From positions 1 through 55,166 of the IMG/VR virus record IMGVR_UViG_3300032954_000016: 55,166 nucleotides of DNA; one strand, written 5' to 3'. This document shows positions 8,516 through 38,518 of this stretch, piece after piece. Within the stretch, counting starts at the first letter, position 1. Each line of letters begins with the position of its first letter. The notes under the pieces were generated by a model. That model saw nothing but the letters and a program-made list of their open reading frames with translations, made no database searches and was not told where the DNA came from. The stretch is from a virus. A program made the position numbers and the translations under genes.

Positions 8516-8517
8516 GG

Positions 8518-9899: not shown

Positions 9900-9920
9900 T
9901 TATTTTGCAATGTTACATTG

Positions 9921-9986
9921 TTAATTAAATTGTTGGTGCTCGGCGCAGAGGCAGCACAGCAAAAGGATGGCGGCGAGGCGGGTCAT
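9921..9986 (-). CDS. 21-residue hydrophobic leader-like frame, possibly a relic
   Basis: ATG 9986 begins two bases after the stop of the esterase gene and encodes MTRLAAILLLCCLCAEHQQFN before a TAA. This is the profile of a Sec or lipoprotein signal peptide cut short. The DNA switches from GC-rich to AT-rich inside it. I read it as the orphaned signal peptide of the original version of the downstream fibronectin-like protein, but a real mini-lipoprotein cannot be excluded. Confidence 0.35.
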   Translation of the reverse strand: MTRLAAILLLCCLCAEHQQFN

Positions 9987-9988
9987 GG

Positions 9989-12289
9989 CTAGAATGGCAC
10001 CGGCAAATGGCCGGATGTTGAATTGGCATTGGTGTCGGCGAATGGAACCAACCAAGAAGTGATGTTCGATGTTGTAATGAAACCGGGAATTGTTGCGTTA
10101 TATCGGATGTTCCCCCGCGCCCCGCTATACCAGCCGGGATTACCGTTCGTGCCGTTCATGGCGTAATACTCGGTAGCCCAAGCCGCCGATGACGGGTCGC
10201 TATGCAAATGCAAGACAACCATGTTGCTGTTCGCCCCTTCAATCGTCACACTGTCAATCACGTTCGACCCAAGGCTGTTGGTGTAGGTGAATCCATAATT
10301 CGGAGTGCCAACCACCAGCGTTGTGTCGGTTGTGAGGTTGCCTTGAGACATGACGTTGGTGATGGCTGACCCGGCTCTGAAGATGTTTGTGGGCCGAACA
10401 CAATCCCAACCGCTGCCCCACACTTCGTTGTAAAAAGCGTAAGCTGCCTTCTCGCCCTGAAACTGATACATGGTCGGGCCGCCCAGATGAACATTGTCAG
10501 ACCTGAACGATTCCATGTAGCGCGAGTCAATGATTTTGTTGCTTGGCCAATAGTCTCGAACCGCGTTGAGCATCCCCATATCTGAGTAAGGAAATGAAGC
10601 TGTCGCGGGATAATAATAAGATGACTCCATGAAGGACAGCATGTGCGGAGTGTTGGTCTGGCCGGTGATGGCCATAATATCAGCGGCAATGTTCTGTTCC
10701 CATTGAATCAGGTTAGCTTCATAAGTCGTCGTTGCCCGGTTAGCCTCACCATGACAGACCACAATTGCCCGAATGTTCAGTCCTGCTCCGAAGATATTGC
10801 TGACCACAGATTGAGATTTGGCAAGGTCATTCAAACAATGCTGATAAACATTGGTGATAACATTTCCTCCGGGGCTGAGTAACATCAGCATGTTCGTGCT
10901 GTTCTTTTGCAGGGCTTCATAGGCCGCACCCGCCGCTGCCCAGTTGATGACAAAAATGCTGTTTGTGTCCATGCCGATGCCGTTAGTGAACGGGCCAGAT
11001 AAACCATTGGTTCTTAGATAGTGAAGTTCATCGGCGAAAGCACGCCATCCAGTGTCCGCCCCTGACTCTACGTAACCTGCAATCGTTGACCGCGCACTGA
11101 TTGTATTTGTGACGAAGGCCGACTGAGCACCCGGATTTCCTGTAACAGTTGCGGTCGGAACAGTCTCGCCGCCGCAATAAAGTGCCCACGGCACTTGATT
11201 GCTCCCATTGATTGCACCAAGGCTTTGAGTTCCGGTTCCACCTGCTACTGCTAATGATTGACCCAAAATCAGCACCGCATCTAACGGCTGTGGATAGTAG
11301 GCGGTTCTACCTAAACGCTGTTCGATGCCCTGAACCATTGTGTAATACGCCCCCAGCAAGTCAGTTGGAATACCTGAATCCCACATGGCCCATGCCACTG
11401 GAATGTTGGTAGATGGGTTGCTGACGCCGGAAAAGAAATTGTCGCGGGCAAGAACATAAGGGGACGCGGCGTAAAACACGCCAGACAACGAATTGGCACT
11501 GGTGTCATGTTGATGAATCAAGCCGTTCTGATAAATATATTCATTGTTGGTGGCCAACCGTGTGAATCCGAAGAGACCCGCACCAAGCATGTATTTGGGC
11601 GGGTTGGCTGGCGTAATAGACGAGAGATTTCCAACAACGGTTTTGACTGCAATATCGCCGCCAGCCCCACTCGGTAATATATTAAGGGTGCTACCGCCGT
11701 TGATACAGCCCATGATGCCTTCCGTGAGTGTGTAAAGAAGATTGGTGGTCGGGTAGGTCAGCCACAGAGCAAATCCGTTTGTTCCAATCCCCCAGTTTGT
11801 GTAGTTCATGCTCAGGGCACGGACAGTAGGATTGTTGAAGCCGGATTGCCGCGTGTAGTCTGAAGCAAGCAGCCCCCCGGCAGGACTGGCATTTGTGGCG
11901 ATGAAACTGACGTTGGTTCCCGGCACCAGATAGGTATAAGCAGCATTGGTCTGGTTCCCGGCGAACGGGCCACCGCATAGGAAGTATGACCACAAACTTT
12001 GGCCGGTAGATGCGCTATTGGTGTTCTTGGCAAAGTTCACGCCCCAATCCACGGCTTGCAAATCGCTGGCTGAAATCGTGCCGCCTTTGTTTGTGATGTT
12101 CGCGCCATAGACCAGTGTTTCAGTCTGGTAGCTGTAGCCGGAAGCAACTGTTGGCGGATACGGCCCGCCAACCCAAATCGCCTGCCCTACCCAAATTGGA
12201 TTTTGGGCCAGCGCAGTCAGCGAAACCAACAGCAGAAGTGCTATTGATTGGTATAGACGAGTTGTGCGAATACGTTTGTGGTTCCCCAT
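9989..12289 (-). CDS. secreted or virion SGNH/GDSL-type esterase domain protein
   Basis: A 766-residue protein starting at ATG 12289, inside the end of the upstream gene (49-nt overlap). Residues ~12-29 are a hydrophobic signal segment ending ALAQ. The centre carries a block I-like LILGQSLAVAGG motif, then VVCHGEANRATTTY, then DNVHLGG with a candidate catalytic Asp-x-x-His pair. This combination is typical of SGNH hydrolases of the sialate O-acetylesterase/CE6 type that deacetylate polysaccharides. The flanks are Thr/Asn-rich and beta-rich. The gene is clearly less GC-rich than the genome. A tail-spike-like capsule or polysaccharide deacetylase is likely, and the Sec signal is unexpected for a virion protein. 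Confidence 0.65.
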   Translation of the reverse strand: MGNHKRIRTTRLYQSIALLLLVSLTALAQNPIWVGQAIWVGGPYPPTVASGYSYQTETLVYGANITNKGGTISASDLQAVDWGVNFAKNTNSASTGQSLWSYFLCGGPFAGNQTNAAYTYLVPGTNVSFIATNASPAGGLLASDYTRQSGFNNPTVRALSMNYTNWGIGTNGFALWLTYPTTNLLYTLTEGIMGCINGGSTLNILPSGAGGDIAVKTVVGNLSSITPANPPKYMLGAGLFGFTRLATNNEYIYQNGLIHQHDTSANSLSGVFYAASPYVLARDNFFSGVSNPSTNIPVAWAMWDSGIPTDLLGAYYTMVQGIEQRLGRTAYYPQPLDAVLILGQSLAVAGGTGTQSLGAINGSNQVPWALYCGGETVPTATVTGNPGAQSAFVTNTISARSTIAGYVESGADTGWRAFADELHYLRTNGLSGPFTNGIGMDTNSIFVINWAAAGAAYEALQKNSTNMLMLLSPGGNVITNVYQHCLNDLAKSQSVVSNIFGAGLNIRAIVVCHGEANRATTTYEANLIQWEQNIAADIMAITGQTNTPHMLSFMESSYYYPATASFPYSDMGMLNAVRDYWPSNKIIDSRYMESFRSDNVHLGGPTMYQFQGEKAAYAFYNEVWGSGWDCVRPTNIFRAGSAITNVMSQGNLTTDTTLVVGTPNYGFTYTNSLGSNVIDSVTIEGANSNMVVLHLHSDPSSAAWATEYYAMNGTNGNPGWYSGARGNIRYNATIPGFITTSNITSWLVPFADTNANSTSGHLPVPF

Positions 12290-14448
12290 AACCCGGCTGG
12301 GATTAAGATTGGAGAAACGTGATTGGTTGGGAATGGGCTTACAAAAGCACCTGCCATATTTGCGCCATTCAGGTTCGTCAGCCCGGAGCCGTTGCCAGAA
12401 ATGGCATAACCATTTGAGACCGATAAATTCCCGGCGACCGTCACATCGCCGTTGATGGCGGGATAAGCCCACGGTCTGACAGTTGTTCCCGCAAGGTTTG
12501 TCCAGGTTACGGCGTTTCCGTCAGGTCGCGTGGGTTTTATTATTGCCAATGCGGACGCAGCGTTAAGCCCAATGTCCATTGACAGCGGGTTGGTGCAAGT
12601 TGTGGTATCAATCATCAAGTCGTCCTGTGCGATGAACTCGCCCGCAGCTATGGCTGAGGTAGAAGCGACACCATAAACGGTTGTGTTGGCTGAGTTGGTG
12701 ATGCCTTGTTCGTTCACATAAATGGTGCAGCCGCTGTGAACCTTAAATGTGCCCGCCGCCGCGCCTTTCAACCGGATTCCAGCACGGGTTTCGGTAAAGG
12801 TTGTGGTCTGATTGTTTGTGCCAACCATCCTTGTGCCCCAAAGGTCGTAAACGTATCCCGAAGATGGGACAGGAACAAAGGCATCCTCACCAAAATAAGC
12901 CGTGCAATCTCGAATGACAACTGACCCGCCGGGCTTACTCGCCGCGCCCATTCGCCAGCAGGATACGTTGTCCCAAGCTATGACGTCTTGAAAATACTCG
13001 TTCGTTCCGGCGCTGGCAGGATACGTGCCGAAAATGTTAGCAGAGTTCCCTTGGTTTGGATAATATACGCCAATCCAAGTGCCACCAATTATGGAGCAAC
13101 CGTCGTCGAGTTCGATTTGAGAAGCTGGTCCGCTGCTGACATTGTTTGATAATGAATAGATTACGCCAGGGTTGGCTATGATAGTTACGTGTGGAGGAAA
13201 ATATAATGCACCTGCAGTTGTGGTATTCGTTGGGTCGCACGGATCAACTGGATATGTTCCTGCGTTCACAATAATTGTGTCGCCGGGCTGTGTTATTTGG
13301 TTGGTAAAAATCTGACAGAGCAACCCGAACGGCTTGGTTTGGTTGCCGCGAACACCATTTAGAGTTCCAGATGGGTCAACCCAAATCGTCTGCGCGTTTG
13401 TAAACGTGAGTGTCCCGGCTGTGGTGGCGTAGGTGGCTGTGGATGCGTTGCCGGACGTGTTGTTGGTCAGGCTCCCGGTGACGTTCGTGGCCGTGCCGTT
13501 GAGCGGGCCGGCGAGCTGGCTGCTGGTTACCGCGCCGCCCATGAACGTGCCGCCGACGAAGCTGCCGGCGGTCACCGGGCCGCTGGCGGTCACACTGCTC
13601 ACACTGACGCCGTTGCCGCTCAGTGTGCCCGACCCGACGTTTATGTTGAGGTTGCCCGGGGCGCTCGGCCCGATGCTGTTGGCGGTGATGGCGTTGCCCG
13701 CCATCGTGTTGAACGCGAGCCCGTTCATCAGCACGTTGCTCCCGCCGCCGATGGCGAACGCGCCCGAGACGGTCGGGGCCAGCGACGAGACCGGGGCCGG
13801 CAGCAGGCCGTAGGTGGACTGCGCCCACGTCCCGACGAAGGTGCTCGCCAGGTTGTAGTGCTCCTGGCCGTTGGCCGCCAGGATGCGCCAGGCGTTGTTG
13901 TTGCTGACGACGAAGCTCTGCGCCACGTAGTTGGTGAACGCCAGCGGCGCGGTCTGCGTGTACCAGCCGAGCACGGAGTCGCCGCTGGAGCTCTGGAGCA
14001 GGAACTGGTTGCTGACGACCTGGATGGCCATGCCGCCGAGCGTCCACGACCCGAGCACGACCTGGTTGCTGGCGGTCAGCGTCCCGTTGTTGGTCTCCGG
14101 CCCGTTGTAGACATTGGTCCCGGTATAGGTGTTGAGGCCGTTGGTGGTCGCCACCTGCCCGGCGTGCAGCGTCGCGGCGGTGTCGGGCGGGATAAAGATG
14201 TTGGTGCCGGAGCTGTTGGTCGGGGCGGCGTTGAGGATGCCCTGCTGCTGCGGCGTCAGGGCGTTGGTGTTGCCGCCGGCCGACCCGAGGAGCGGGTTGG
14301 CCTGCGCGATCCCGTTGGCGTTGGTCGGCCCCGTTATGACCATGTTGGTGTCCACCATTATGGCGTAGAGCGGGCTGGAGGCGGCCCGGCAGACGGCCGC
14401 GGCGCCGAGCAGCGCGAGGGCGGCGGCGAGTAGTGTCTTGGTCTTCAT
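12241..14448 (-). CDS. tail spike/fibre with signal peptide and parallel beta-helix
   Basis: A 735-residue protein starting at ATG 14448 and overlapping the upstream stop by ATGA. Residues 1-22 form a Sec signal (MKTKTLLAAALALLG, ending CRA). A Thr/Asn/Gly-rich low-complexity region follows. From the middle onward there are pectate-lyase-style turns (GDTIIVNAGTYPVDP, TIIANPGVIYSLSNN, CSIIGGTWIG) that indicate a right-handed beta-helix. The C-terminus has GSGLTNLNGANM, a trimer-fibre type motif. GC falls sharply from about 13.4 kb downward, so the 3' half is probably acquired. It is the likely receptor-binding protein. No catalytic residues identified. Confidence 0.65.
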   Translation of the reverse strand: MKTKTLLAAALALLGAAAVCRAASSPLYAIMVDTNMVITGPTNANGIAQANPLLGSAGGNTNALTPQQQGILNAAPTNSSGTNIFIPPDTAATLHAGQVATTNGLNTYTGTNVYNGPETNNGTLTASNQVVLGSWTLGGMAIQVVSNQFLLQSSSGDSVLGWYTQTAPLAFTNYVAQSFVVSNNNAWRILAANGQEHYNLASTFVGTWAQSTYGLLPAPVSSLAPTVSGAFAIGGGSNVLMNGLAFNTMAGNAITANSIGPSAPGNLNINVGSGTLSGNGVSVSSVTASGPVTAGSFVGGTFMGGAVTSSQLAGPLNGTATNVTGSLTNNTSGNASTATYATTAGTLTFTNAQTIWVDPSGTLNGVRGNQTKPFGLLCQIFTNQITQPGDTIIVNAGTYPVDPCDPTNTTTAGALYFPPHVTIIANPGVIYSLSNNVSSGPASQIELDDGCSIIGGTWIGVYYPNQGNSANIFGTYPASAGTNEYFQDVIAWDNVSCWRMGAASKPGGSVVIRDCTAYFGEDAFVPVPSSGYVYDLWGTRMVGTNNQTTTFTETRAGIRLKGAAAGTFKVHSGCTIYVNEQGITNSANTTVYGVASTSAIAAGEFIAQDDLMIDTTTCTNPLSMDIGLNAASALAIIKPTRPDGNAVTWTNLAGTTVRPWAYPAINGDVTVAGNLSVSNGYAISGNGSGLTNLNGANMAGAFVSPFPTNHVSPILIPAGLWGTTNVFAQLVYTNQ

Positions 14449-29510: not shown

Positions 29511-30923
29511 TCACGTGACCCTCTCCACCTTGAACCGCTCGCCGGCCGAGAACCGCTCGGCGCCGCCGCCCGCCGACCGCAGCTCGCCCAATCCGGAGAA
29601 CGCGCCGGTGCCGGCATGGAGGTGGTCGAACAGGTAGCGCAGCGCGTCCATGCTGTGGTCGTTCTCCTTCTTGGGCGCGTCCTTGGCCGCCTTGTCGTTC
29701 CACACATAGGACTCGAACTCATTGACATGGTCCACGCAGGACGGGTCGGTCGAGTAGCGCGCCCTGCCGTCGCCGGCCACCTTGAGAGCGTTGCGCACCA
29801 GGTCGCAGCCGTCCAGCACCCGCCCCTTGGCGCCGATCGCGTAGACGCCGGCGTTGTTCAGGTCGGCGATGAGGCCGGCCGCCGCCTCGTCCACGACCGC
29901 GACCTCGCACCTCGTCTCGGCCGGCGGCAGCACGGTGACACCCTCGCCGTCGGGCGGCAAGGCGGCGTAACCGGCCGGGTTCTGGAACCAAAGCCGGGCG
30001 CGAGCGACCACGTCGGCCTGGAGCACGCCGCGCCGGAAGAAGCACCGGAAGCAGTGCAGGCGGCCGTCCCCGTCGGCACCGACCAGCAGGACCACCGCCG
30101 GGTTGGTGTAGCCCTCGTCCAACGCCAGGAACCAGCGCCGCATCTCCTTGTGGTCGCGGACCCGGACGTGCGGGCCGCCGGGCGTCGAGTCGAAGTTGTC
30201 GTACACGGCGCCCTCGGCCGTGGCCCACTGGCCCTCCAGCAGCCTCTTGCGGCGCACGCCGGTCAGGGTGGACTCCAGCAGCCCGATGCGCCGCCGGCCC
30301 TCGGCGGTGATGTTCCCGGCGTCGTCGTAAAGCGCCGGGTTGTCCTTGTGGGTCGACAGCAGCCGCGTCAGCGAGGCCCGGCTCCGAATCCAGTGGCTCG
30401 CGCCGGCCGGGTTGCAGTCGCCGAACACCTGCGGCCACGCCACCACCGCGCCGCGGCCGGTCACGCGGCCGGCGACCATCTCCCACTCGGCCTCGGTGAG
30501 CTGCTCGGCCTGAACCATGTGCGCGAAGTCCCACTCGCTGGAGAGCAGCTTGTCGGCCTTGTCCAGCCCGGCGCACACCAGCTCCGACCCATTCGGGAAC
30601 ACCCACTTCTCGGTGAACTTCTCGCCGCCGTACCGCTTGATGGGCAGGCCGGCGGTGATGGTGTTGAAGGTCCGGGCGCACGAGTCGTTGATGGAGTTGA
30701 ACAGCTTGCGCACCATGATGCCGTGCGCCTTGGGGCGCCTGGCGTCAGAGCAGAGCAGGAAGTCCTTGACGCATCCGGCCCACGTTTTGGAGGTGTCCGA
30801 CGGGCCGCAGAGGATGGCCTCGTGGTCGTGGCAGGTCAGGAGCTGGAGCGAGCCGCCGCGGAACTTGGGGAGCTCCACCGTGACGGTGCGCGCCCGCTTC
30901 GGCTTGGCGGTCAGCTTCGTCAC
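29511..30923 (-). CDS. terL: terminase large subunit
   Basis: A 470-residue protein with a GTG start at 30923 that overlaps the small-subunit stop (GTGA). The N-terminal ATPase has an atypical Walker A, GPSDTSKT (residues 40-47), and a following KDFLLCSDARRPKAHGIMVR segment. The C-terminal nuclease shows LALDEGYTNPAVVL, VAVVDEAAAGLIADLNNAGV and NDHSMDALRYLFDHL, matching the RNase H-like metal-binding acidic residues of phage terminases. It packages DNA into proheads with the small subunit. The Walker A lacks the usual glycine before Lys-Thr, but the overall layout is clear. Confidence 0.85.
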   Translation of the reverse strand: MTKLTAKPKRARTVTVELPKFRGGSLQLLTCHDHEAILCGPSDTSKTWAGCVKDFLLCSDARRPKAHGIMVRKLFNSINDSCARTFNTITAGLPIKRYGGEKFTEKWVFPNGSELVCAGLDKADKLLSSEWDFAHMVQAEQLTEAEWEMVAGRVTGRGAVVAWPQVFGDCNPAGASHWIRSRASLTRLLSTHKDNPALYDDAGNITAEGRRRIGLLESTLTGVRRKRLLEGQWATAEGAVYDNFDSTPGGPHVRVRDHKEMRRWFLALDEGYTNPAVVLLVGADGDGRLHCFRCFFRRGVLQADVVARARLWFQNPAGYAALPPDGEGVTVLPPAETRCEVAVVDEAAAGLIADLNNAGVYAIGAKGRVLDGCDLVRNALKVAGDGRARYSTDPSCVDHVNEFESYVWNDKAAKDAPKKENDHSMDALRYLFDHLHAGTGAFSGLGELRSAGGGAERFSAGERFKVERVT

Positions 30924-31462
30924 TTGGCCGGCGCCGGGCCGGTCACGGCCTCGGGGTCGACGCTGGACTTGACCACCACCATCAGCGGGCCGCCGCCCTC
31001 GCCGACCAGCTCCTGCCGCTCGCGCCACTCGTCCGGCTGCCGGTTCTTGAGCCAGAAGATGCACGCCGTGGTGTCCGGCGGGTAGTGCTTGACGATGTCG
31101 GTCTTGATGATGCGACCCTCGTACGACTTGATGTCCACGTCGGGATGGCTGTACCCGGTGGCGCGCTGGTAGAGCGACTTGATGACGGCCTCGTCCGCCT
31201 CCCGTTTTCCGAGCTTTAAGGCTTTGCCAACTTCGGGGTGGCGGTGGCGAAGATTGAACACAGCGATGCCGCTTATCCCGAACGCCTCGCCTATCTGCGC
31301 ATCGGTCGCGCCGAGCCTCGCCAATACCTTGGCGATCCGCAGCCGGTCCAGCTTCACCGGTTTGCGCCCGCCGCCTTCGCCCTGGCGGCCGCGCTTAACC
31401 TTGCCGGTGCGCTTGGAGACGGTGCTCGGCTTGCGGGGTTTTCGGCGGCGGGTCGCGCTCAT
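30920..31462 (-). CDS. terS: terminase small subunit
   Basis: A 180-residue protein starting at ATG 31462, immediately after the promoter at 31471-31499. It has a basic N-terminal tail, a helix-turn-helix (IAKVLARLGATDAQIGEAFG), a KALKLGKREADEAVIKSLYQ helix and the conserved YPPDTTACIFWLKNRQPDEW near the end, typical of small terminase subunits that recognise packaging DNA. It precedes the large subunit with a GTGA overlap. Confidence 0.85.
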   Translation of the reverse strand: MSATRRRKPRKPSTVSKRTGKVKRGRQGEGGGRKPVKLDRLRIAKVLARLGATDAQIGEAFGISGIAVFNLRHRHPEVGKALKLGKREADEAVIKSLYQRATGYSHPDVDIKSYEGRIIKTDIVKHYPPDTTACIFWLKNRQPDEWRERQELVGEGGGPLMVVVKSSVDPEAVTGPAPAK

Positions 31463-31470
31463 CTGACGGG

Positions 31471-31499
31471 GGTATAGCCGGTCGCCGGTTGAATGTCAA
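31471..31499 (-). promoter_or_regulatory. sigma70-type promoter for terminase genes
   Basis: TTGACA (31494-31499) and TATACC (31471-31476) on the minus strand with a 17-base spacer. The -35 overlaps the stop of the upstream cassette gene. It would re-start transcription at the border between the cassette array and the structural genes. Confidence 0.8.
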
Positions 31500-32002
31500 C
31501 GCTTTTCCGGCGACGTCGCCGAACCGGCCGCTGCAGCGGACGCCGAGGCGCCGCTGAGCTTGTTGTTCGGCGGATACAGTTCCACCGGCTCCACACCCTC
31601 GCGCAGAGGCTTCGCCCGCTCGAACACGCACTGAATGTCAGACTCCGCCAGTATGCGCCCGACTTCCATTTTGACCGCGCAGTATCCGAAGCGGTGGAGC
31701 GTCGCGTATTCTGTTGGCGTGAACCAGCGGCGGAGTTGTTCCAGCGTGCGGCAGCCGCAGCCGAGATTCATGCCGACGATAGAGAGGCGCAGCACGTTTC
31801 CAAATTGCATCGGCCACGGGACGAGAGCGGCGTATTCTTCCTCCGGTTTGTCCTCGACCCACCGTTGCGAGAACCCTGGTTTCCACGGGCCTCGACCCGC
31901 GGCGTCTTGCACTCGATACACAATCGCCGAACAAGGCGCTGGAGCGAATGAGTGCCCCGCCACGCTGTTTGGCAATTCGGGAGTCTGGGATGGGGCACTC
32001 AT
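31496..32002 (-). CDS. conserved phage hypothetical protein, last gene of the cassette array
   Basis: An open frame of 168 residues from ATG 32002, which lies inside attC-like site 1. The first ~25 residues are read from the palindrome. The conserved part starts near YRVQDAAGRGPWKPGFSQRW, a pattern I associate with small phage/prophage proteins of unknown function, and continues with LRRWFTPTEYATLHRFGYCAV. A GTG just before YRVQD is an alternative start. The C-terminus is Ala/Ser-rich. It ends in the terminase promoter. Confidence 0.6.
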   Translation of the reverse strand: MSAPSQTPELPNSVAGHSFAPAPCSAIVYRVQDAAGRGPWKPGFSQRWVEDKPEEEYAALVPWPMQFGNVLRLSIVGMNLGCGCRTLEQLRRWFTPTEYATLHRFGYCAVKMEVGRILAESDIQCVFERAKPLREGVEPVELYPPNNKLSGASASAAAAGSATSPEKR

Positions 32003-32023
32003 CGCTCAGCTTGGTCGTTAGGC
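31926..32023 (+). other. attC-like site 1
   Basis: A 98-bp imperfect palindrome running from GCCGAAC to GTTAGGC. The arms AAGGCGCTGGAGCG and CGCTCAGCTTGGTC pair with extra G and A on the left arm. These are integron attC features: RYYYAAC/GTTRRRY cores and unpaired bases in one arm. The strand given is the polarity implied by that asymmetry. Confidence 0.8.
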
Positions 32024-32241
32024 TACAAGGCATCCTCGCCACCGGGCAGCATGTCCGATTCGATGGTTGGGAAGTTGAGTTTGTCCAGGACGCGATTCAC
32101 GTCCTCCTTTTTTCCGCCGGTCAGTTCGCGGATGATTTTGAAGCATTCATCGAGTGCTTCTTGGGCGTCTCCGAGGTTTTCGATTCCTTCCATTCGGAAT
32201 CGGCCATCCTCGCCGACGATATGATTTAGTGATCCAGCCAT
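32023..32241 (-). CDS. cassette protein, small acidic helical
   Basis: A 72-residue protein from ATG 32241, nine bases from attC-like site 2, to a TAG that overlaps the right core of site 1, so the gene fills its cassette exactly. It begins MAGSLNHIVGEDGRFRMEG and contains a helical ALDECFKIIRELTGGKKEDVN core. No family recognised. Confidence 0.65.
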   Translation of the reverse strand: MAGSLNHIVGEDGRFRMEGIENLGDAQEALDECFKIIRELTGGKKEDVNRVLDKLNFPTIESDMLPGGEDAL

Positions 32242-32249
32242 AAGTTGTA

Positions 32250-32339
32250 GCCTAACCCGGCGCTGGAGAGAACGCCGGGATTGCGTTTCAGTGTTATTCG
32301 ACGCCGCTCTCCCCGGCGTCTCTCAGCTTTGCGTTAGAC
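32250..32339 (+). other. attC-like site 2
   Basis: A 90-bp palindrome from GCCTAAC to GTTAGAC. The left arm CCGGCGCTGGAGAGAACGCCGG pairs with the right arm CCGGCGTCTCTCAGC, with extra bases on the left. The right core supplies the TAA stop of the gene on its right. Confidence 0.8.
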
Positions 32340-32558
32340 AGCTTTGGGAATCTCAGCTTGTTCCAATTTGTAAATGTGTTTTTGAAGCTCGTAGGTCACA
32401 TCAATTCCTACGCCTTGGGTTTTAACTGCCGGTGCTGTATGGAGAACGCACATAAAGTTGTCCATGACTTCGACCTTCGCGGCTAGTACTTCGTTCTGGT
32501 GGCGCAGAGCACGTATCTCGTTCTGCGCTTCCTTGAGCGTTTCAATCAGTTCGTTCAT
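32334..32558 (-). CDS. cassette protein, coiled coil
   Basis: A 74-residue protein from ATG 32558 to a TAA provided by the core of site 2. The first 30 residues form a heptad helix (MNELIETLKEAQNEIRALRH). The second half (VGIDVTYELQKHIYKLEQAE) is also helical. It looks like the small coiled-coil proteins often found in phage early regions. Function unknown. Confidence 0.65.
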   Translation of the reverse strand: MNELIETLKEAQNEIRALRHQNEVLAAKVEVMDNFMCVLHTAPAVKTQGVGIDVTYELQKHIYKLEQAEIPKAV

Positions 32559-32562
32559 AGCT

Positions 32563-32654
32563 GTCTAACCAATCAGTGCAGCGAATGGCGCGGAGTCGCT
32601 GCGGGTTCAATTCGGTTGGTCAGCGATGCGCCATCGCTGACTTCTGCGTTAGGA
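32563..32654 (+). other. attC-like site 3
   Basis: A 92-bp palindrome from GTCTAAC to GTTAGGA. Arms CAGTGCAGCGAATGGCGC and GCGCCATCGCTGACTT, with extra G and A on the left. The last core base deviates from GTTRRRY. Confidence 0.7.
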
Positions 32655-32669
32655 CCACCAGTCATCGTC

Positions 32670-32999
32670 CTAGTCGCCATGCTCCGATACAGGGCCTCCA
32701 TCATCCTGCGTCTCGACCTTGTCCGCGATCTGTGGCAGGTCGAAGCGGCTCACCGGTTCATTGCGATAGCGTTGGAGCATTCCGAGCGCGATTTCCTCCG
32801 TCACTGGGTTGATGCTGTAGATTGCTCCCGGCCCATAGAAGCGGGTATATGCCTTGTTCTCGGCCTGGGCCGGCACGTCCACGCGCAGGAACGCACCGCC
32901 GGCGAGTGTGGCCTCACTCACCTTGCCCACGATCTTCTGGTGGCCGAACAGTTCGACCAGTGCCCATTCATTGAAGCTGCTTCCGTTGTCTTTGCTCAT
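32670..32999 (-). CDS. conserved protein of the WALVEL(F/M)GH type
   Basis: A 109-residue protein from ATG 32999. It contains WALVELFGHQKIVGKVSE, AFLRVDVP and FYGPGAIYSINPVTEEIA, a pattern I recognise from small proteins of unknown function widespread in phages and prophages. Probably a beta-rich single domain. It fills the cassette between attC-like sites 3 and 4, starting five bases from site 4. Confidence 0.7.
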   Translation of the reverse strand: MSKDNGSSFNEWALVELFGHQKIVGKVSEATLAGGAFLRVDVPAQAENKAYTRFYGPGAIYSINPVTEEIALGMLQRYRNEPVSRFDLPQIADKVETQDDGGPVSEHGD

Positions 33000-33003
33000 A
33001 AGG

Positions 33004-33127
33004 TCCTAACAAGCGGATGCACACGAACAGCCGCCCCGCTTGGCAGTTCGGGCGCATCAGGTTTTACTATGGTTTCGGGGCTTTCAAAGTCTCGGTCGGC
33101 GGCTGTCGGTGATCCGCAGCGTTAAGC
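33004..33127 (+). other. attC-like site 4
   Basis: A 124-bp palindrome from TCCTAAC to GTTAAGC. Arms GCGGATGCACACGAACAGCC and GGCTGTCGGTGATCCGC pair with extra G on the left. The right core gives the TAA stop of the next gene. Confidence 0.8.
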
Positions 33128-33421
33128 GGCTAAATATGATGCCACTTCCTTTCCTTCGGTTGTCAGTTCCCATGCCCAGCCATATCGCTTCGTGGCCAGC
33201 CCTTTATTTTGTAGGGCGTAAAAACTTTGCACGCTAGCGGGTTTATGGTCATCCCAAGCTTGGCATTGGGGGTAGTTGGTGGTGTGAGGCAGTCCCATCA
33301 TTTTGGCATCTTTTAGCCATCGGATAGCAGCCACCTGTCCAGCCGTTAGCCGCTTAACCACTCCATTCAGCGAACCGCGAGTGGCACTTTCGGTTTGTTC
33401 GGTAACGTATTTTACGCTCAT
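33122..33421 (-). CDS. cassette protein, winged-helix-like
   Basis: The open frame has 99 residues from ATG 33421, within the loop of site 5, to the TAA of site 4's core. The first ~28 residues are read from the palindrome and include GVVKR. The likely native protein starts near AGQVAAIRWLKDAK and ends WELTTEGKEVASYL, a pattern like a short winged helix. GTG in front of AAIRWL is an alternative start. Confidence 0.55.
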   Translation of the reverse strand: MSVKYVTEQTESATRGSLNGVVKRLTAGQVAAIRWLKDAKMMGLPHTTNYPQCQAWDDHKPASVQSFYALQNKGLATKRYGWAWELTTEGKEVASYLAA

Positions 33422-33459
33422 AGTTTTGTTATTCGCGGTCGCTGATGTCGGCGTTAGAA
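33352..33459 (+). other. attC-like site 5
   Basis: A 108-bp palindrome from GCTTAAC to GTTAGAA. Arms CTCCATTCAGCGAACCGCG and CGCGGTCGCTGATGTCGG, with extra T and A on the left. It contains the apparent start of the gene to its left. Confidence 0.7.
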
Positions 33460-33852
33460 CATTGAGTCATCGTCGTCATCGTCCAGGTCTGGCTCTTGCC
33501 AATCGTCCTCGTAGTTGTAGCGGCGACGATTGAAGTGCGCCCGGTCTTCGATGGCTTTCACGAGCGCCTTTTCTTCCGGCGTGCGTTCGCCTTCCGGTTT
33601 TTCGAGCACGTCGCGATGGCGATAGCGGATTCTTTCGAGTTTCGATTTGTCGTTGAGCGCGAGTTCGGCGTTCTCCTTCGCCACCTTGTATTGCTCGACT
33701 GCCTTGTCCGCGAGTCGCGCTGCTGTCTTGCGGAGTTCATCTACGGCTTCGGGTGTTGTCGCCGAGCTTGAGGACAGACACACCTCGAAGTGGCAGTAGT
33801 CATGTGAGCGCATCACTTTCACGCTTCCGATTTGGATGTCAGGAATTTGCAT
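33454..33852 (-). CDS. cassette protein with acidic tail
   Basis: A 132-residue protein from ATG 33852, seven bases from site 6, to a TAA in site 5's core. The N-terminus is MQIPDIQIGSVKVMRSHDYC, followed by CHFEVCLSS and a long charged helix. The C-terminus is strongly acidic (DLDDDDDDSMF), like proteins that bind basic partners or mimic DNA. Function unknown. Confidence 0.65.
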   Translation of the reverse strand: MQIPDIQIGSVKVMRSHDYCHFEVCLSSSSATTPEAVDELRKTAARLADKAVEQYKVAKENAELALNDKSKLERIRYRHRDVLEKPEGERTPEEKALVKAIEDRAHFNRRRYNYEDDWQEPDLDDDDDDSMF

Positions 33853-33858
33853 ACGATG

Positions 33859-33983
33859 TTCTAACAAATCGGTGCAGACCAACAGCCGCCGCCCTCGGCA
33901 TTGGCTGCACCATTGGTTGTTTGATTGGCGGTTTGCATTTCAAAGTTCACTTCCGGCGGCTGTGGCTGACCTCATCGTTAGGT
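33859..33983 (+). other. attC-like site 6
   Basis: A 125-bp palindrome from TTCTAAC to GTTAGGT. Arms AAATCGGTGCAGACCAACAG and CTGTGGCTGACCTCAT, with extra bases on the left. Confidence 0.75.
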
Positions 33984-33985
33984 GC

Positions 33986-34138
33986 TTAAGGCTCCGAGCA
34001 TACGGTTTTCAATGCATCCCAAGCCGTAGTGCATCCTGGGATGTATTCCTGATTCCATAGCAGGAATATCCACAAAATCATTCCCGGCATCCAAAGTGGG
34101 AAGGCGGCTATAAACAAAACGAGTTTTATCATTTTCAT
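33986..34138 (-). CDS. 50-residue membrane peptide in a two-gene cassette
   Basis: ATG 34138 overlaps the stop of the preceding small gene by ATGA. The product begins MKMIKLVLFIAAFPLWMPG and its first ~28 residues form a transmembrane hairpin or helix. The TAA stop lies three bases from site 6. AT-richer than the phage average. Confidence 0.6.
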   Translation of the reverse strand: MKMIKLVLFIAAFPLWMPGMILWIFLLWNQEYIPGCTTAWDALKTVCSEP

Positions 34139-34242
34139 CTTGGTCCTTCGGTTGCGATTACTTCAGTCAAACACCACCACGCGAGCGGTTCTTCATCAGC
34201 GGCGTCGTGAGGTTTTTCACCCCAGGATTTCTTTTTACCCAT
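34135..34242 (-). CDS. small cassette protein, coupled to a membrane peptide
   Basis: A frame of 35 residues from ATG 34242 (MGKKKSWGEKPHDAADEEPL), ending with ATGA into the next gene. In-frame GTG codons further upstream could add a few residues. The frame also stays open back through attC-like site 7 to 34389, so read-through is possible. Function unknown. Confidence 0.45.
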   Translation of the reverse strand: MGKKKSWGEKPHDAADEEPLAWWCLTEVIATEGPR

Positions 34243-34289
34243 AGCGACACGCGCCACATCCGCCGCCCACAAATAGCGTTCGGTCGAGC

Positions 34290-34416
34290 ACCTAACAAAT
34301 CGCTGGACCGAATGGCTATTACGCCGGTCAGTTCCAACGCTGTCTTTGCGCTCAATCGTTTCTTGTTGCATCGTGCTCATTTTACGCACCCGCCATCGGT
34401 CAGTTTTCCGTTAGCT
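34290..34416 (+). other. attC-like site 7
   Basis: A 127-bp palindrome from ACCTAAC to GTTAGCT. Arms AAATCGCTGGACCGAATGGC and GCCATCGGTCAGTTTT, with extra G and A on the left. Confidence 0.75.
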
Positions 34417-34638
34417 GGCTTTGAGGCGTAGCTTACATTCATGGCACTTGAGAGCGTCTTGCATTGGTGTGACCCACTCGCCGCCGCCATCGTCTCCGCA
34501 TAGCGCGATGCCGTCCTTTACCGCATGGACTACTCGCCCCGCACGCAGGAATGTTGACGGGAGTAGCCAGCTAACAACGCGCTTCAGCGAACGGCCTTTG
34601 GCCGTTCTGCTTCGCGCTCGCCGCAATTTGGTTGTCAT
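34411..34638 (-). CDS. cassette protein with CxxC motif, started inside attC-like site 8
   Basis: A 75-residue frame from ATG 34638 to the TAA of site 7's core. The ATG lies in the loop of site 8 behind GAGAAAGGA and overlaps the upstream frame's stop by ATGA. About 20 basic residues from the palindrome precede the native part (LRAGRVVHAVKDGIALCGDD ... ALKCHECKLRL), which has a CHEC motif suggesting a metal or redox site. Confidence 0.6.
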   Translation of the reverse strand: MTTKLRRARSRTAKGRSLKRVVSWLLPSTFLRAGRVVHAVKDGIALCGDDGGGEWVTPMQDALKCHECKLRLKAS

Positions 34639-34689
34639 GGTTGCATTCCTTTCTCGTGCTCAGGCCGTCGCTGAGCTCGGTCGTTAGCC
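34569..34689 (+). other. attC-like site 8
   Basis: A 121-bp palindrome from AGCTAAC to GTTAGCC. Arms GCGCTTCAGCGAACGGCC and GGCCGTCGCTGAGCTC, with extra bases on the left. Its loop holds a ribosome binding site, a stop and a start codon (34635-34638). Confidence 0.75.
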
Positions 34690-35066
34690 GCGCCTCGCTC
34701 GCTGGCCCTCGCGGGGCCAGCGTCGGCGGCTTCGATGATTTGCACGATCCTTCGCCTACAATGTTTGTTTCCGTTAAATATGAATTTCGCACTTTCGAGC
34801 GCCATCGGGCTTGTAATATCTCTCCAATCCCAAGGAGCATCACCGAACATTTCGGCCCCGACTTGCACCACGAATGCCGCCGAATCGCTTTTCGGCGCGG
34901 CTAACGGCGAAGCTGCCAGCGCCTTGTTGCCGCTCGGCGCGGCTAACAAGTCGCTGGAGGCGGACATCGCCTGCGGCGACCCTTCAGGGAGCAAGCAACC
35001 ACATGAACCGCAGTAGTGCTGCTCCAACCTTGACGTTTCAAATCCGCATTGATTACATATTTTCAT
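34635..35066 (-). CDS. zinc-ribbon-type cassette protein crossing two palindromes
   Basis: A 143-residue frame from ATG 35066, with AAGGGAG six bases upstream inside site 9. The first ~30 residues hold a CxxC...CxxC ribbon (MKICNQCGFETSR, HYCGSCGCLLPEG). The middle includes FVVQVGAEMFGDAPWDWRDI. The C-terminus reads through site 8 and ends ATGA with the next gene. It may be a fusion produced by cassette rearrangement. Confidence 0.55.
   Translation of the reverse strand: MKICNQCGFETSRLEQHYCGSCGCLLPEGSPQAMSASSDLLAAPSGNKALAASPLAAPKSDSAAFVVQVGAEMFGDAPWDWRDITSPMALESAKFIFNGNKHCRRRIVQIIEAADAGPARASERGAANDRAQRRPEHEKGMQP
34899..34933 (-). other. inverted minimal attC-like remnant
   Basis: GGCTAACGGCGAAGCTG abuts CCAGCGCCTTGTTGCCG. 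The first half is the reverse complement of the right arm of site 9. The second half is close to the reverse complement of the left arms of sites 1 and 13. Together they form a loopless attC in opposite polarity, inside the zinc-ribbon frame. Confidence 0.45.
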
Positions 35067-35107
35067 TGCTTGCTCCCTTCAGTTGCCGCTCAGCTTCGCC
35101 GTTAGCC
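34941..35107 (+). other. attC-like site 9
   Basis: A 167-bp site from GGCTAAC to GTTAGCC. Arms AAGTCGCTGGAGGCGG and CCGCTCAGCTTCGCC, with extra bases on the left. The long loop carries the start of the zinc-ribbon gene and the stop of the gene to its right. Confidence 0.7.
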
Positions 35108-35241
35108 GCCTTGCGTTTGCGTTTCAGGGCGACTGTTGCTTTCTTCCAGTTTTCGCGGGCGGCGCGGCGCTTGGCCTCCGAGGTTGCCTTGCCACCGAGC
35201 CGTCCGAGAGTTTGCGCGGCCTTATTGACATGACCACTCAT
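35053..35241 (-). CDS. small GG(K)-AAREN-type basic protein
   Basis: A 62-residue protein from ATG 35241. LGRLGGKATSEAKRRAAREN followed by WKKATVALKRKRK resembles the short basic 'GGK...AARENGKKGG' proteins common in phages and mobile elements. The last ~18 residues are translated from site 9. It overlaps the zinc-ribbon start by 14 bases and the upstream gene by 20. Confidence 0.65.
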   Translation of the reverse strand: MSGHVNKAAQTLGRLGGKATSEAKRRAARENWKKATVALKRKRKAANGEAERQLKGASNENM

Positions 35242-35425
35242 AGTCGGAGTCTTGTTTCTCGCCGCTCGCCAGCGCCTCGGCGATTTCGTGCGCGTCTTGG
35301 TCGGCGGCCACTATCATCCGGCTGCCATCGCCGCGGCGAATCGTTGTCTGGCCACCGCGCTCGCTCACCACATACTCGCTGTCATCCGTGTAGTATCCGT
35401 TTCCGCTTACTGTTACTTTTTTCAT
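35222..35425 (-). CDS. cassette protein, small beta-rich
   Basis: A 67-residue protein from ATG 35425: MKKVTVSGNGYYTDDSEYVV, then TTIRRGDGSRMIVAADQDAH. Probably a small beta-sheet domain. It shares its cassette with the gene at 35053-35241 and lies 20-50 bases downstream of a promoter-like sequence. No family recognised. Confidence 0.6.
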   Translation of the reverse strand: MKKVTVSGNGYYTDDSEYVVSERGGQTTIRRGDGSRMIVAADQDAHEIAEALASGEKQDSDYEWSCQ

Positions 35426-35444
35426 TTTCGTTTTTCGGCTCGGC

Positions 35445-35516
35445 TTACTGGGCCTCGCTCATCTTTCTGCGCTCAATATACCAAGCGGTTAGTATATCGT
35501 CAACATTTATTTTCAC
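35445..35516 (-). CDS. possible 23-residue peptide overlapping a promoter
   Basis: GTG 35516 opens a frame reading MKINVDDILTAWYIERRKMSEAQ. The frame is open further upstream (KIIKKPNKTGSKK) but has no standard start there. The sequence looks protein-like yet coincides with the promoter at 35475-35503, so only one reading may be functional. Confidence 0.3.
   Translation of the reverse strand: MKINVDDILTAWYIERRKMSEAQ
35475..35503 (-). promoter_or_regulatory. promoter inside the cassette array
   Basis: TTGACG (35498-35503) and TATATT (35475-35480) on the minus strand with 17 bases between, in an AT-rich stretch. It would transcribe the cassettes from 35425 downward independently. Confidence 0.65.
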
Positions 35517-35561
35517 TTTTTTTGACCCTGTTTTATTGGGCTTTTTGATGATTTTGACGGC

Positions 35562-35694
35562 GGCTAACCCGGCGCTGCACAGAACTGGAGCTACGCTCCT
35601 CCAGTTGCGGCAGCGCCGGGTGCATCAATGCCAGTTTTGTAGTGGGACGCGAAATCACGATTTGCCGCTCCAGTCTGTGAGCTTGTCGTTAAGC
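35562..35694 (+). other. attC-like site 10
   Basis: A 133-bp palindrome from GGCTAAC to GTTAAGC. Arms CCGGCGCTGCACAGAACTGG and CCAGTCTGTGAGCTTGTC, with extra G and A on the left. A nested AACTGGAG hairpin lies in the loop. The right core provides the TAA of the next gene. Confidence 0.8.
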
Positions 35695-35997
35695 GATGCG
35701 TTCTAGTTCGAGCACCTTTTTTACAGTTGGTCGCCACCGCTTTTTAGACTTTGGTTTCGTCCACTCATGGTCATCCCCGTAACGCTCGAAATCGGCCTTT
35801 GAGATTTCGCCAAATGCCAGCACTTGATCTTCGCAGGCTGCATGAAGGAGTATGTCATCGCCGCCGCCCACGTCCTGACAGACGCCGATTACACCTATGT
35901 CGCAAATGATTTCGTAAAACTTCGGACGGCATCGCTTAACAACTCCATGCAGGCGACGTGGAGAACAGCTTCGGGTTTGCGTTGGTTTCGATTTCAT
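35689..35997 (-). CDS. cassette protein, started inside attC-like site 11
   Basis: A 102-residue frame from ATG 35997, two bases after the upstream stop in the loop of site 11. The first ~20 residues come from the palindrome (including GVVKR, as in the gene at 33122). The native part has KFYEIICDIGVIGVCQDVGG and FGEISKADFERYGDDHEW, an alpha/beta domain of unknown function. It ends at site 10's core. Confidence 0.55.
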   Translation of the reverse strand: MKSKPTQTRSCSPRRLHGVVKRCRPKFYEIICDIGVIGVCQDVGGGDDILLHAACEDQVLAFGEISKADFERYGDDHEWTKPKSKKRWRPTVKKVLELERIA

Positions 35998-36054
35998 ATT
36001 TACAGTTTTGGTTGTGCCGAGTCAGGTGACACGCGCCTGATGTCGGCGTTCGGC
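35934..36054 (+). other. attC-like site 11
   Basis: A 121-bp palindrome from GCTTAAC to GTTCGGC. Arms CTCCATGCAGGCG and CGCCTGATGTCGG, with extra G on the left. A stop (36000-36002) and a start (35995-35997) lie in the loop. Confidence 0.7.
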
Positions 36055-36257
36055 AACAGGTGCATTTCGTGCCGCCCAAAGATGTCCACGAACCACGCTT
36101 CACGGTGGCCGAATGGTCCGTTTGGTCCGGTGCAGTCGAGCGCCCTGCCACGCTCTGCCATCCTTTCCTCTGTTGTCAGTGTTGGCTTGTTGTTTGGCCA
36201 GCGTTGCCGAACCAATCGGTCCAGCGAACCCGGCGATTGCGTCTCAGTTGTATTCAT
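36000..36257 (-). CDS. cassette protein between attC-like sites 11 and 12
   Basis: An 85-residue frame from ATG 36257, ATGA-coupled to the methyltransferase stop within site 12. It reads MNTTETQSPGSLDRLVRQRW, then TEERMAERGRALDCTGPNGP and REAWFVDIFGRHEMHLLPN. The last ~20 residues come from site 11. No family recognised. Confidence 0.5.
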   Translation of the reverse strand: MNTTETQSPGSLDRLVRQRWPNNKPTLTTEERMAERGRALDCTGPNGPFGHREAWFVDIFGRHEMHLLPNADIRRVSPDSAQPKL

Positions 36258-36296
36258 GGCGTTTTGGTCGCCGGGTCGCTGACCTCGGCGTTCGGC
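36206..36296 (+). other. attC-like site 12
   Basis: A 91-bp palindrome from GCCGAAC to GTTCGGC. Arms TCGGTCCAGCGAACCCGGCG and CGCCGGGTCGCTGACCTC, with extra bases on the left. It contains an ATGA junction at 36254-36257. Confidence 0.8.
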
Positions 36297-36847
36297 TTCT
36301 GGAACACGATCCAATGTGATTTGAAGTGCTTCCCGTAGCGGCTGCCGTAGAGCGGCTTTTCGGGAGTTAGCGCGAGGATTTCTTTCACGCTCACCTCGTC
36401 CTCGTTCCACTTGAAAACCAGCGTGCCATTCGGCCGCAGGACGCGGAAGCATTCAGCGAATCCTTTGGCGATCATTTCGCGCCAGTTGCCCCGGAGCACT
36501 CCATACTTTTTTAGTATCCAGCTCGTGTCGCCGTTCCGCTGGATGTGTGGCGGGTCGAAGATGACGTGCCAAAAGTGATTGTCTGGGAATGGCAGCGCCG
36601 TAAAGTCGGCCACGATGTCAGGATTGACCACGATTTCGCGCTCACCGTTTTTTACCGAGCAGTCAGCGGCCAGATGAGTTTCGCGGCGGATGTCCACGAA
36701 CAGCGCACGCGGGTCTTTGCGGTCGAACCAGAACATCCGGCTTCCACAAGCGGCGTCCAGCACAGAAGCCGAACAAGGCGCTGCACCCGCAATGACTGCC
36801 GCGGCGGGCGGTTCAGGCGAGGCGATAGATTTTGACGCGGCAGTCAT
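36254..36847 (-). CDS. SAM-dependent methyltransferase (cassette gene)
   Basis: A 197-residue frame from ATG 36847, in the loop of site 13. The first ~27 residues come from the palindrome. The native enzyme shows VLDAACGSRMFWFDRKDPRA (residues 30-49, SAM binding), ALFVDIR, then PDIVADFTALPFPDNHFW and a catalytic-loop-type FDPPH (97-101). This is a phage-associated class I methyltransferase whose substrate is not established to my knowledge; a DPPH motif suggests a nucleobase amino group. The C-terminal ~12 residues come from site 12. Confidence 0.75.
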   Translation of the reverse strand: MTAASKSIASPEPPAAAVIAGAAPCSASVLDAACGSRMFWFDRKDPRALFVDIRRETHLAADCSVKNGEREIVVNPDIVADFTALPFPDNHFWHVIFDPPHIQRNGDTSWILKKYGVLRGNWREMIAKGFAECFRVLRPNGTLVFKWNEDEVSVKEILALTPEKPLYGSRYGKHFKSHWIVFQKPNAEVSDPATKTP

Positions 36848-36868
36848 GGGGTGAGCTTGTCGTTCGGC
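36768..36868 (+). other. attC-like site 13
   Basis: A 101-bp palindrome from GCCGAAC to GTTCGGC. Arms GCGCTGCACCCGCAATGACT and AGTCATGGGGTGAGCTT, with extra G and A on the left. It contains the ATGA junction at 36844-36847. This is the right-hand limit of the array. Confidence 0.8.
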
Positions 36869-37059
36869 GCCGTCACTGGTGGTTGAGGTTGACCAGCGAG
36901 AAGAACTCGGCCCGGGTGGCCGGCGTCCCACGACACCGCCCCGTCGCGGCTCGCGTGCCTTCCGGGGTGCCCGGCTGCGAGCCCGCAGCGGACGGGCGCA
37001 GCGCCGGCCGGCACCGGCGCCAAACTCCCGCAGCGATTGATGATTCGTTCGGCTCTCAC
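36844..37059 (-). CDS. small Cys/His protein with GHPGRH motif
   Basis: A 71-residue protein with a GTG start at 37059 that overlaps the upstream stop (GTGA). The core VRCGLAAGHPGRHASRDGAVSW resembles short 'C...GH.GrH' motifs that may bind metal, known in small actinobacterial and phage proteins. The C-terminus (APNDKLTP) is encoded by site 13 and ends ATGA with the methyltransferase frame. Confidence 0.55.
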   Translation of the reverse strand: MRAERIINRCGSLAPVPAGAAPVRCGLAAGHPGRHASRDGAVSWDAGHPGRVLLAGQPQPPVTAPNDKLTP

Positions 37060-37340
37060 GCGAACAGCTCCGGCTGCGGCTTGTGCCAGTTGGCCAGCCT
37101 CTCGAACGACAGCACGGTCTCGCCCTTGCGCCGGCCGCCCCTCCTGCGCACGTGCAGCCCGTCGCGGCGCAGCTCGAACACGTGCAGCTTGAGGACCGGC
37201 TCGTGCGCCGTCGGGCTGACCGCCGGCGAGCCGACGTCGACCGCCTTGACGACCCGGCCGCGCACCCGGTCGGCCGGCCTGCGCCACTGGTCGCGGGGCT
37301 TGATGGTGGCGAACGGCTTGCGCTTGGCGGTCTTGTTCAT
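37056..37340 (-). CDS. hypothetical protein
   Basis: A 94-residue basic protein from ATG 37340, ATGA-coupled to the Dam-type gene upstream. LKLHVFELRRDGLHVRRRGG, then KGETVLSFERLANWHKPQ, suggests a small beta domain that may bind nucleic acid. Such proteins occur in phage early regions; no role assigned. Confidence 0.6.
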   Translation of the reverse strand: MNKTAKRKPFATIKPRDQWRRPADRVRGRVVKAVDVGSPAVSPTAHEPVLKLHVFELRRDGLHVRRRGGRRKGETVLSFERLANWHKPQPELFA

Positions 37341-38518
37341 GGTTTGGGCGATGTACAGTCGGCTTTGTGCTGGCCAAGGCCAGCATATCGGTCAATCCAC
37401 TTTTGATCGAGCTGTCCTTTAGCTGATGGTTTCGGGGGCGGCGCGGCGGCTGCCGGTGTCGGTTTGGGCGGCTTTGGAGCCTTGGACCGGGCCGTTGGGG
37501 CGGCGACCAGCACCGGCGCGTCCTGCGCCAACGTAGGCGTTTTGGCCTTTAAAATACAGTCCCACTCCGGCTGGAGCGGCTTCAGACAATGCGGGCTGAA
37601 CCAGATCCGCTCCCGGGCTGAGTTTTCGCTGTTTCCTGCGGCGGCAGCGTATCCGCCGCTCGCTTTCCATGCAACACAATCCCACTCTTGAGGCATTTGA
37701 TGCTCTCCTTCGTACCCGCAGAGAGCTATTCGCAACAGCGGATTAGTTCCGTTTTCAACCGCCCACTGTTTGACTTTGTCTGAAACTCCGCGAGAGAAGT
37801 CTCCATACACATCATCGTGTCCGTCGGCATCGTAGGGCGGGTCCAAGAGAATGCCTGTCAGCCCTTGACCGAACGTCGCAGCCTTCGTAAGTACACGCGA
37901 CCAATCGCCGCAGCATACTTTGGTATGGCGCATCCGTTCAGCAATCGCCCGGAACCAAGCAACTATATTTTCAGTGTTACTTTCCGAGCCACCCCCTGAC
38001 CACCCGTCAGGTGCGGAACTTGCCGAATCAGCCACCCCCTGACCACCCGTCAGGTGCGGAACTTTCCGAGCCACCCCCTGACCACCCGTCAGGTGCGGTG
38101 CTGAATTTTGTTCCGTCGGATGACAAAAGTTGTCACCAATCCAACATGAGACCCCCCACATCCACCAGCCGGCTATTTTCGTGTCGTAGTAGTCGGGGTC
38201 GTTCTCCATTCGCTTGCGGAACTCCAACCGCTTGTGAAGCCACCGATGCCTGGCGTGTAAATCCGCCTCGTTAATTGGCCAGTCAGCGTGGAGTGCAGTT
38301 TCCTCCGGGGCGAACTTCATCGCACGCCAAGTATTAGCCACATAGCAATCAATATCATTCACAATCTCATTTTTGGGCTTGTGTGGTCGCCGTAGCAGCA
38401 CCGCCAACGAGCCAGCGAACGGTTCGACATAATTACCAACGTCGCCGAGCCGGGACCATATAAGGTCTGCGGCTCGTGACTTTCCCCCAAACCAGACAAA
38501 TGGCGTTTTCAGTTCCAT
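37337..38518 (-). CDS. Dam-like N6-adenine DNA methyltransferase (D12 class) with repeat insertion
   Basis: A 393-residue protein from ATG 38518 (TGATG overlap). PFVWFGGKSRAADLIWSRL (6-24) is the SAM-binding motif, VEPFAGSLAVLL follows, and LLDPPYDADG (DPPY 226-229) is the catalytic motif IV of D12 methylases. Residues ~139-182 are a Gly/Ser-rich insertion encoded by three copies of a 29-bp repeat. The C-terminal ~60 residues are Ala/Pro/Lys-rich. It probably methylates phage DNA against host restriction. GC is lower than in neighbouring phage genes. Confidence 0.8.
   Translation of the reverse strand: MELKTPFVWFGGKSRAADLIWSRLGDVGNYVEPFAGSLAVLLRRPHKPKNEIVNDIDCYVANTWRAMKFAPEETALHADWPINEADLHARHRWLHKRLEFRKRMENDPDYYDTKIAGWWMWGVSCWIGDNFCHPTEQNSAPHLTGGQGVARKVPHLTGGQGVADSASSAPDGWSGGGSESNTENIVAWFRAIAERMRHTKVCCGDWSRVLTKAATFGQGLTGILLDPPYDADGHDDVYGDFSRGVSDKVKQWAVENGTNPLLRIALCGYEGEHQMPQEWDCVAWKASGGYAAAAGNSENSARERIWFSPHCLKPLQPEWDCILKAKTPTLAQDAPVLVAAPTARSKAPKPPKPTPAAAAPPPKPSAKGQLDQKWIDRYAGLGQHKADCTSPKP
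37988..38098. repeat. three 29-bp palindromic repeats inside the methylase gene
   Basis: Copies at 37988-38016, 38031-38059 and 38070-38098 are identical (GCCACCCCCTGACC..., with a CTGAC/GTCAG stem). Starts are 43 and 39 bases apart, so two copies are read in one frame (PHLTGGQGVA) and one in another (APDGWSGGG) without breaking the gene. Confidence 0.85.

Follow-up and report, generated by a model that had tools for sequence, protein, structure and literature searches.

Integrons are usually described as collections of promoterless genes that have their own starts and that depend on a platform promoter, with the hairpins of the attC recombination sites hindering translation. Here we analyze an array of 14 attC sites (31518-36868) in a 55,166-base stretch of viral DNA, IMG/VR record IMGVR_UViG_3300032954_000016, whose full length is referred to below as the window. 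The array is flanked by a small terminase gene (30920-31462, phrog_309) on one side and by a methyltransferase region on the other. The array itself, the orientation of its genes, their reading phase and the starts within attC loops are read directly from the sequence. The genes are antisense to the canonical attC orientation, a point omitted from an initial annotation of this DNA that had proposed attC sites as gene junctions. With a probability that we put at roughly 0.7, the locus would be a phage-borne integron cassette array in which genes are inverted relative to attC and each attC doubles as the translational junction of its neighbors.

Phage arrays that resemble this one are known. CALINs (clusters of attC sites lacking integron-integrases) have been described in phages as attC arrays that are often without intI and that carry methyltransferase cassettes (Qi et al. 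2023, PMC9892861), and five of six tested phage attC sites were functional with IntI1 (PMC9892861). The window shares with these the attC array, the frequently observed absence of intI and the methyltransferase cassettes. The TJE1 and PH101 arrays were described in the same study as co-directional and typical, with start codons and translation not discussed (PMC9892861), whereas the window genes are antisense to attC and have their junctions in the loops. In class 1 integrons, the recombination core at attI1 provides the stop of an upstream open reading frame (ORF), ORF-11, whose translation is thereby coupled to that of the cassette gene behind it (PMC8876359). That is a single short leader located at attI, while the arrangement described here is array-wide, lies between cassette genes, operates via attC and has a fixed phase. 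Translation is also affected by attC hairpins, which mainly impede the gene that follows; termination-reinitiation at a short ORF within an attC can lift this block (Jacquier et al. 2009, as reviewed in PMC8876359). In those sites it is the downstream gene that is impeded; here the upstream gene enters the stem and the downstream start is located in the loop. Sedentary and mobile bacterial integrons have the same attC architecture and the same R'/R'' cassette ends, and share their intI geometry with two related phage arrays discussed below (L155 and L150), but differ in that their genes mostly follow the attC orientation and seldom overlap attC. Literature searches returned no earlier account of reversed phage arrays, of loop-borne starts as a rule or of a fixed crossover phase, although bioRxiv was not covered and absence is thus unproven.

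At this locus, the hairpin itself seems to belong to the translation unit, with the frame constant exactly where cassettes swap. If true, this would explain how a virus exchanges small genes inside a compact operon without loss of expression, and would predict proteins with hybrid ends. It would also mean that the phage cassette pool is partly separate from the bacterial pool, because the genes face the other way.

Cassette structure and gene orientation

In integrons, attC becomes whole only when the cassette is circular, and for this reason the two cassette ends match. In the window, R' of each site pairs with R'' of the next over 6-10 nucleotides (nt) in 12 of 13 cases and over 5 nt in the thirteenth, and the two cores within one site match over only 0-6 nt. 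As the ends match across each cassette and not within each site, the window sites represent real cassettes. All 14 sites also have R''/R' cores and complementary L''/L' arms. When folded as single-stranded DNA, site 2 gave a z of -3.9 and some other sites folded no better than shuffled sequences.

Relatives were obtained by running left-arm attC patterns against IMG/VR, after which larger stretches were chained by site score and cassette-end match. Right-arm patterns gave mostly chance matches and were rejected as a means of finding relatives, a joint left-plus-right arm pattern had no match in viral or genome collections, and the window terminase protein, used as a query, had no match in IMG/VR. 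Besides the window there are 12 IMG/VR contigs in which the called genes run against attC, which together constitute the 13 phage arrays considered throughout.

The extra unpaired bases of attC are on the L'' side in 75 of 80 sites of these arrays, as they are in 48 of 59 sites of canonical arrays, and because of this placement the plus strand of the window is the canonical attC top strand. All supported window genes are on the minus strand, co-directional with the flanking phage genes, and minus-strand frames match the phage families phrog_954 (a methyltransferase, E 5e-70), phrog_1106 and phrog_29525. Thus, with a minus coding strand and a plus attC top strand, the window genes are antisense to their attC sites. 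Orientation of a gene with its attC is a usual, though not strictly defining, trait of integrons, and it is missing from the window and its 12 relatives. Coding sequence over all 13 arrays amounts to approximately 32.1 kilobases (kb) antisense to attC and 1.07 kb sense. Nine bacterial arrays, which include ones from Verrucomicrobiota, Planctomycetota, Gammaproteobacteria and Sulfurimonas, have genes that run mostly in the attC direction.

Reading phase and starts at the cassette boundaries

Of the upstream genes in the 13 arrays, 12 end before the R' core, 25 end at a TAA within it and 30 read through it. Read-through occurs in the AAC phase (xxx-AAC) in 28 of the 30 genes, a count that includes a doubtful window frame ending at 36844, and never in the ACG phase. 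The two non-AAC cases were judged after the phase had been seen. At L144 9461 the boundary was mis-set, as the true core is 7 bases upstream and gives the AAC phase, and L156 13412 is a false site. With both set aside, G-core sites, at which all three phases are open, give 18 AAC and 0 other. With stricter gene scores, which drop the 36844 frame, the AAC phase is used in 15 of 15 cases, of which 11 are G-core and 4 are T-core, with a chance value of about 3.5e-7 if all are independent and a true significance that is weaker. Junctions thus come in two dialects, with TAA inside the core at 25 sites and AAC-phase read-through at 28, a distinction that the initial annotation had not made. Canonical arrays exhibit read-through in only 2 of 46 cases, both in the ACG phase (Fisher p = 1.3e-6), and a start inside the site in 5 of 45 (p = 0.004).

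The phase at R'' behaves differently. Genes that start inside a site are distributed 21/11/10 over the three phases, so the R'' phase is not locked, and a fixed entry phase at R'' is unsupported as a rule. Cassette exchange would predict this difference: the R'' phase would be free because the start and the gene body travel together in one cassette, while the R' phase would have to agree because the upstream gene and the attC that it enters belong to different cassettes. On the gene strand the crossover cuts the AAC codon itself (AA/C). Conservation of the frame in homologous arrays had been suggested as a check by the initial annotation, and the frame is indeed kept at R', in the AAC phase, over the 13 contigs. 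The excess over chance is weak when taken from the window alone, where five credible read-through genes all use the AAC phase; over the 13 arrays the junction pattern is beyond chance.

The stops and starts inside the sites follow the same phase. Among ATGA and GTGA starts inside sites, the TGA is in the AAC phase in 26 of 42 (p = 1.4e-4 versus one third), and these 26 include sites at which the upstream gene now in place has already ended and has no use for the TGA. For in-frame loop starts of all arrays, the spacing from the first AAC-phase stop to the start is exactly -1 (ATGA) in 16 of 42 sites. Two relatives of the site 14 attC of the window, at L144 11406 and L154 6789, have 77-79% identity; the genes upstream of this attC family have no detectable similarity, yet each ends at the same TGA, at offset 40. 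Choice of junction also varies among genomes. For example, L156 has a strong Shine-Dalgarno sequence in 44 of 46 genes and junctions that are mostly TAA plus Shine-Dalgarno, and AAC-phase read-through is more frequent in arrays of genomes with few Shine-Dalgarno sequences, such as L144 and L148.

These observations bear on whether ordinary gene compaction would suffice, with ATGA overlaps occurring everywhere in phage genomes and palindromes located at gene ends only since cassettes are compact. Overlaps of -4 are indeed frequent in the rest of the genome, and once a frame is open a stop within a 100-nt site is expected. Compaction does not, however, predict a single R' phase (28 of 30, with 0 ACG) together with a free R'' phase, nor the contrast with canonical arrays, nor the retention of one AAC-phase stop by related attC sites whose upstream genes are dissimilar, and we regard it as an unlikely explanation.

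The methyltransferase cassettes provide information on whether attC-encoded protein ends are real. In two C5-methyltransferases (L144 8520 and L148 8314) the catalytic motif starts near residue 31, and there is no in-frame ATG, GTG or TTG between residue 5, which is in the attC loop, and residue 43. A third gene, L144 11728, similarly has no in-frame start from attC to the start of its conserved catalytic region. Additionally, two unrelated methyltransferases carry the attC leader MSAP(M/T)TSD(C/S)NQDAARAHGSSLQRLV as an in-frame fusion, which speaks for a swap. The leaders and tails could still be annotation artefacts, with proteins that begin beyond R'' and end no later than R', and for the window methyltransferase a GTG directly behind R'' (residue 29) is indeed available as an alternative start. 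The three genes that have no other in-frame start ahead of their catalytic regions, and read-through frames that are open in one phase only, make this explanation even less probable than compaction. The proposal that attC supplies a stop and a start for cassettes is supported, with the loop start effectively forced in several methyltransferase cassettes.

Integrases of related arrays and the proposed mechanism

An integron integrase adjoins two of the reversed phage arrays, L155 (TIGR02249, 473 bits, 11670-12692; best solved relative IntI4, 2a3v) and L150 (TIGR02249, 272 bits with a cut-off of 265, 7879-8967). Both integrases diverge from the attC direction, which is the canonical intI-attC geometry of a normal integron, and therefore it is the cassette genes that are the inverted part. 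L155 and L150 are integrons inside phage genomes. These adjoining integrases, together with cassette-end complementarity and the canonical L'' asymmetry, make it very improbable that the palindromes are attC-like RNA hairpins (terminators or regulators) and not recombination sites, even given the poor single-stranded folding of some sites and the lack of a detected integrase in the window. In a deposited phage record, Virus Rctr41k (KX853513.1; L283:4680-5678 and 8418-8818), an integron-type integrase annotated as xerD is present with two attC-like sites of canonical orientation.

In the mechanism that we propose, a phage promoter would most likely transcribe the array as one operon, and expression would proceed without host promoters. 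In many cassettes the attC loop ahead of the gene body holds the start codon of that gene, in some cases together with a Shine-Dalgarno sequence. A gene then has two main ways to end. It may stop at the TAA of its own core site, after which the next start follows in the loop or shortly beyond R'', or it may pass through the core in the xxx-AAC phase into the attC arm of its neighbor and stop there, often at ATGA. A ribosome that enters the first side of the hairpin would presumably open it and terminate on or close to the following start, so that the downstream cassette would supply the stop and often a coupled restart as well. With the phase fixed at the crossover, any cassette could follow any other. 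We infer that the junctions are translated and coupled, that the cassettes are still mobile and that selection holds the phase. Somewhat less firmly than the dual role of attC itself, we favor the view that this is a phage-evolved variant of the integron with inverted cassettes, in which attC would be at once a recombination site, a stop for any upstream neighbor and the start of its own gene, with the frame standardized at the crossover; such a variant would constitute a natural frame-compatible standard for gene assembly.

A number of points weigh against an inverted array with attC as translational junction. A tyrosine recombinase search (PF00589) had no match within the window, and thus no integrase was found there, although the record is possibly incomplete. 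A Shine-Dalgarno sequence is lacking at many window junctions. Overlaps of -4 make up 17 of 61 same-strand pairs in the window record, so that ATGA as such is not special. Reversal is also not a general property of phage arrays, as those of TJE1, L054, L083 and Rctr41k are canonical or mostly so. The relatives were picked by attC arm pattern and hence are not a random sample, the genes were called with a simple home-made codon-usage caller, and the sharing of attC families among arrays leaves the phase counts less than fully independent.

Sites and genes of the window array

Site numbers run from 1 to 15, with number 10 assigned to an inverted attC-like remnant outside the 14 sites, and sites 8, 9, 11, 12 and 13 of the initial annotation correspond to sites 9, 11, 13, 14 and 15 here. 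All sites are on the plus strand and all cassette genes on the minus strand, and window upstream genes have all three kinds of end (before the core, TAA inside the core, or read-through of the core). Gene 2 (31496-32005, phrog_1106) has a tail that reads through the whole of site 1 (31518-31571), a short site of 54 nt, in the AAC phase. Sites 2 (31926-32023), 3 (32250-32339), 4 (32563-32654) and 5 (33004-33127) follow, with gene 3 (32023-32241) starting directly after R'', gene 4 (32334-32558) ending at a TAA within the R' core, and gene 5 (32670-32999) belonging to phrog_29525. The loop of site 6 (33352-33459) holds the ATG of gene 6 (33122-33421), which ends at the TAA of the site 5 core, and gene 7 (33454-33852) ends at the TAA of the site 6 core. 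Beyond sites 7 (33859-33983) and 8 (34290-34416), gene 9 (34411-34638) starts in the loop of site 9 (34569-34689) and ends at the TAA of the site 8 core. Gene 11 (34635-35066) starts in the loop of site 11 (34941-35107) and passes through R' of site 9. Cassette 12 has two genes, the first at 35222-35425 and the second, which passes through R' of site 11, at 35053-35241. Gene 13 (35689-35997) starts in the loop of site 13 (35934-36054) and ends at the TAA of the core of site 12 (35562-35694). Gene 14 (36000-36257) starts in the loop of site 14 (36206-36296), a loop whose sequence is common to other phages, and passes through R' of site 13. Gene 15 (36254-36847) is the phrog_954 DNA methyltransferase; its ATG is in site 15 (36768-36868), its first 27 amino acids are derived from that attC, and its tail passes through R' of site 14. 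Several unrelated families of DNA methyltransferase recur as cargo, at 36254-36847 of the window and in the L144, L145, L148, L154 and L036 arrays.

The five read-through genes of the window (35053-35241, 34635-35066, 36000-36257, 36254-36847 and 31496-32005) all cross in the xxx-AAC phase, which is the reason for their (P/A)N tails. The shared C-terminal tails of the initial annotation are present as PNAEVSDPATKTP, PNADIRRVSP.., AANGEAERQ.. and AANDRAQRR.., to which PPNNKLSGA.. through site 1 can be added, and its GVVKR leaders are present as two, on the genes that start at 33421 and 35997. It had also placed five stop-start junctions in loops. Four of these are plausible and have exact coordinates, namely minus-strand ATGA at 34635-34638 (site 9) and 36254-36257 (site 14), a 14-base overlap of ORFs 35053-35241 and 34635-35066 at 35053-35066 (site 11), and in site 13 a TAA at 36000-36002 followed by an ATG at 35995-35997 (TAAATATG at 35995-36002). 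The ribosome binding sites reported for the first and third of these are likewise found ahead of ATG, as AAAGGA in the loop of site 9 and AAGGGAG in that of site 11. The fifth, at 36844 in site 15, does have an ATGA in the usual phase, but its upstream frame (36844-37395, or 36844-37548 from stop to stop) is probably not coding. This frame is of low complexity (Arg/Pro) and has a caller score of 4.3 versus 17.7 for the overlapping gene 37056-37340; because that gene fills the stretch in another frame, we rejected the 36844 frame as a coding junction, as it looks like a shadow frame.

Several minor observations concern repeats in and around the arrays. The remnant numbered 10 (34898-34930) is short, lies within gene 34635-35066, and has one arm that is a 19-nt perfect inverted repeat of the site 11 right arm. 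Near-identical attC copies (90-96%) recur within one array at L145:9275-9563 and 9831-10125, with cassettes down to about 200 bases. Finally, within a D12-type methyltransferase frame of the window (37337-38518), a repeat of 39-43 nt (AGCCACCCCCTGACCACCCGTCAGGTGCGGAACTT) occurs three times in tandem at 37987-38111.

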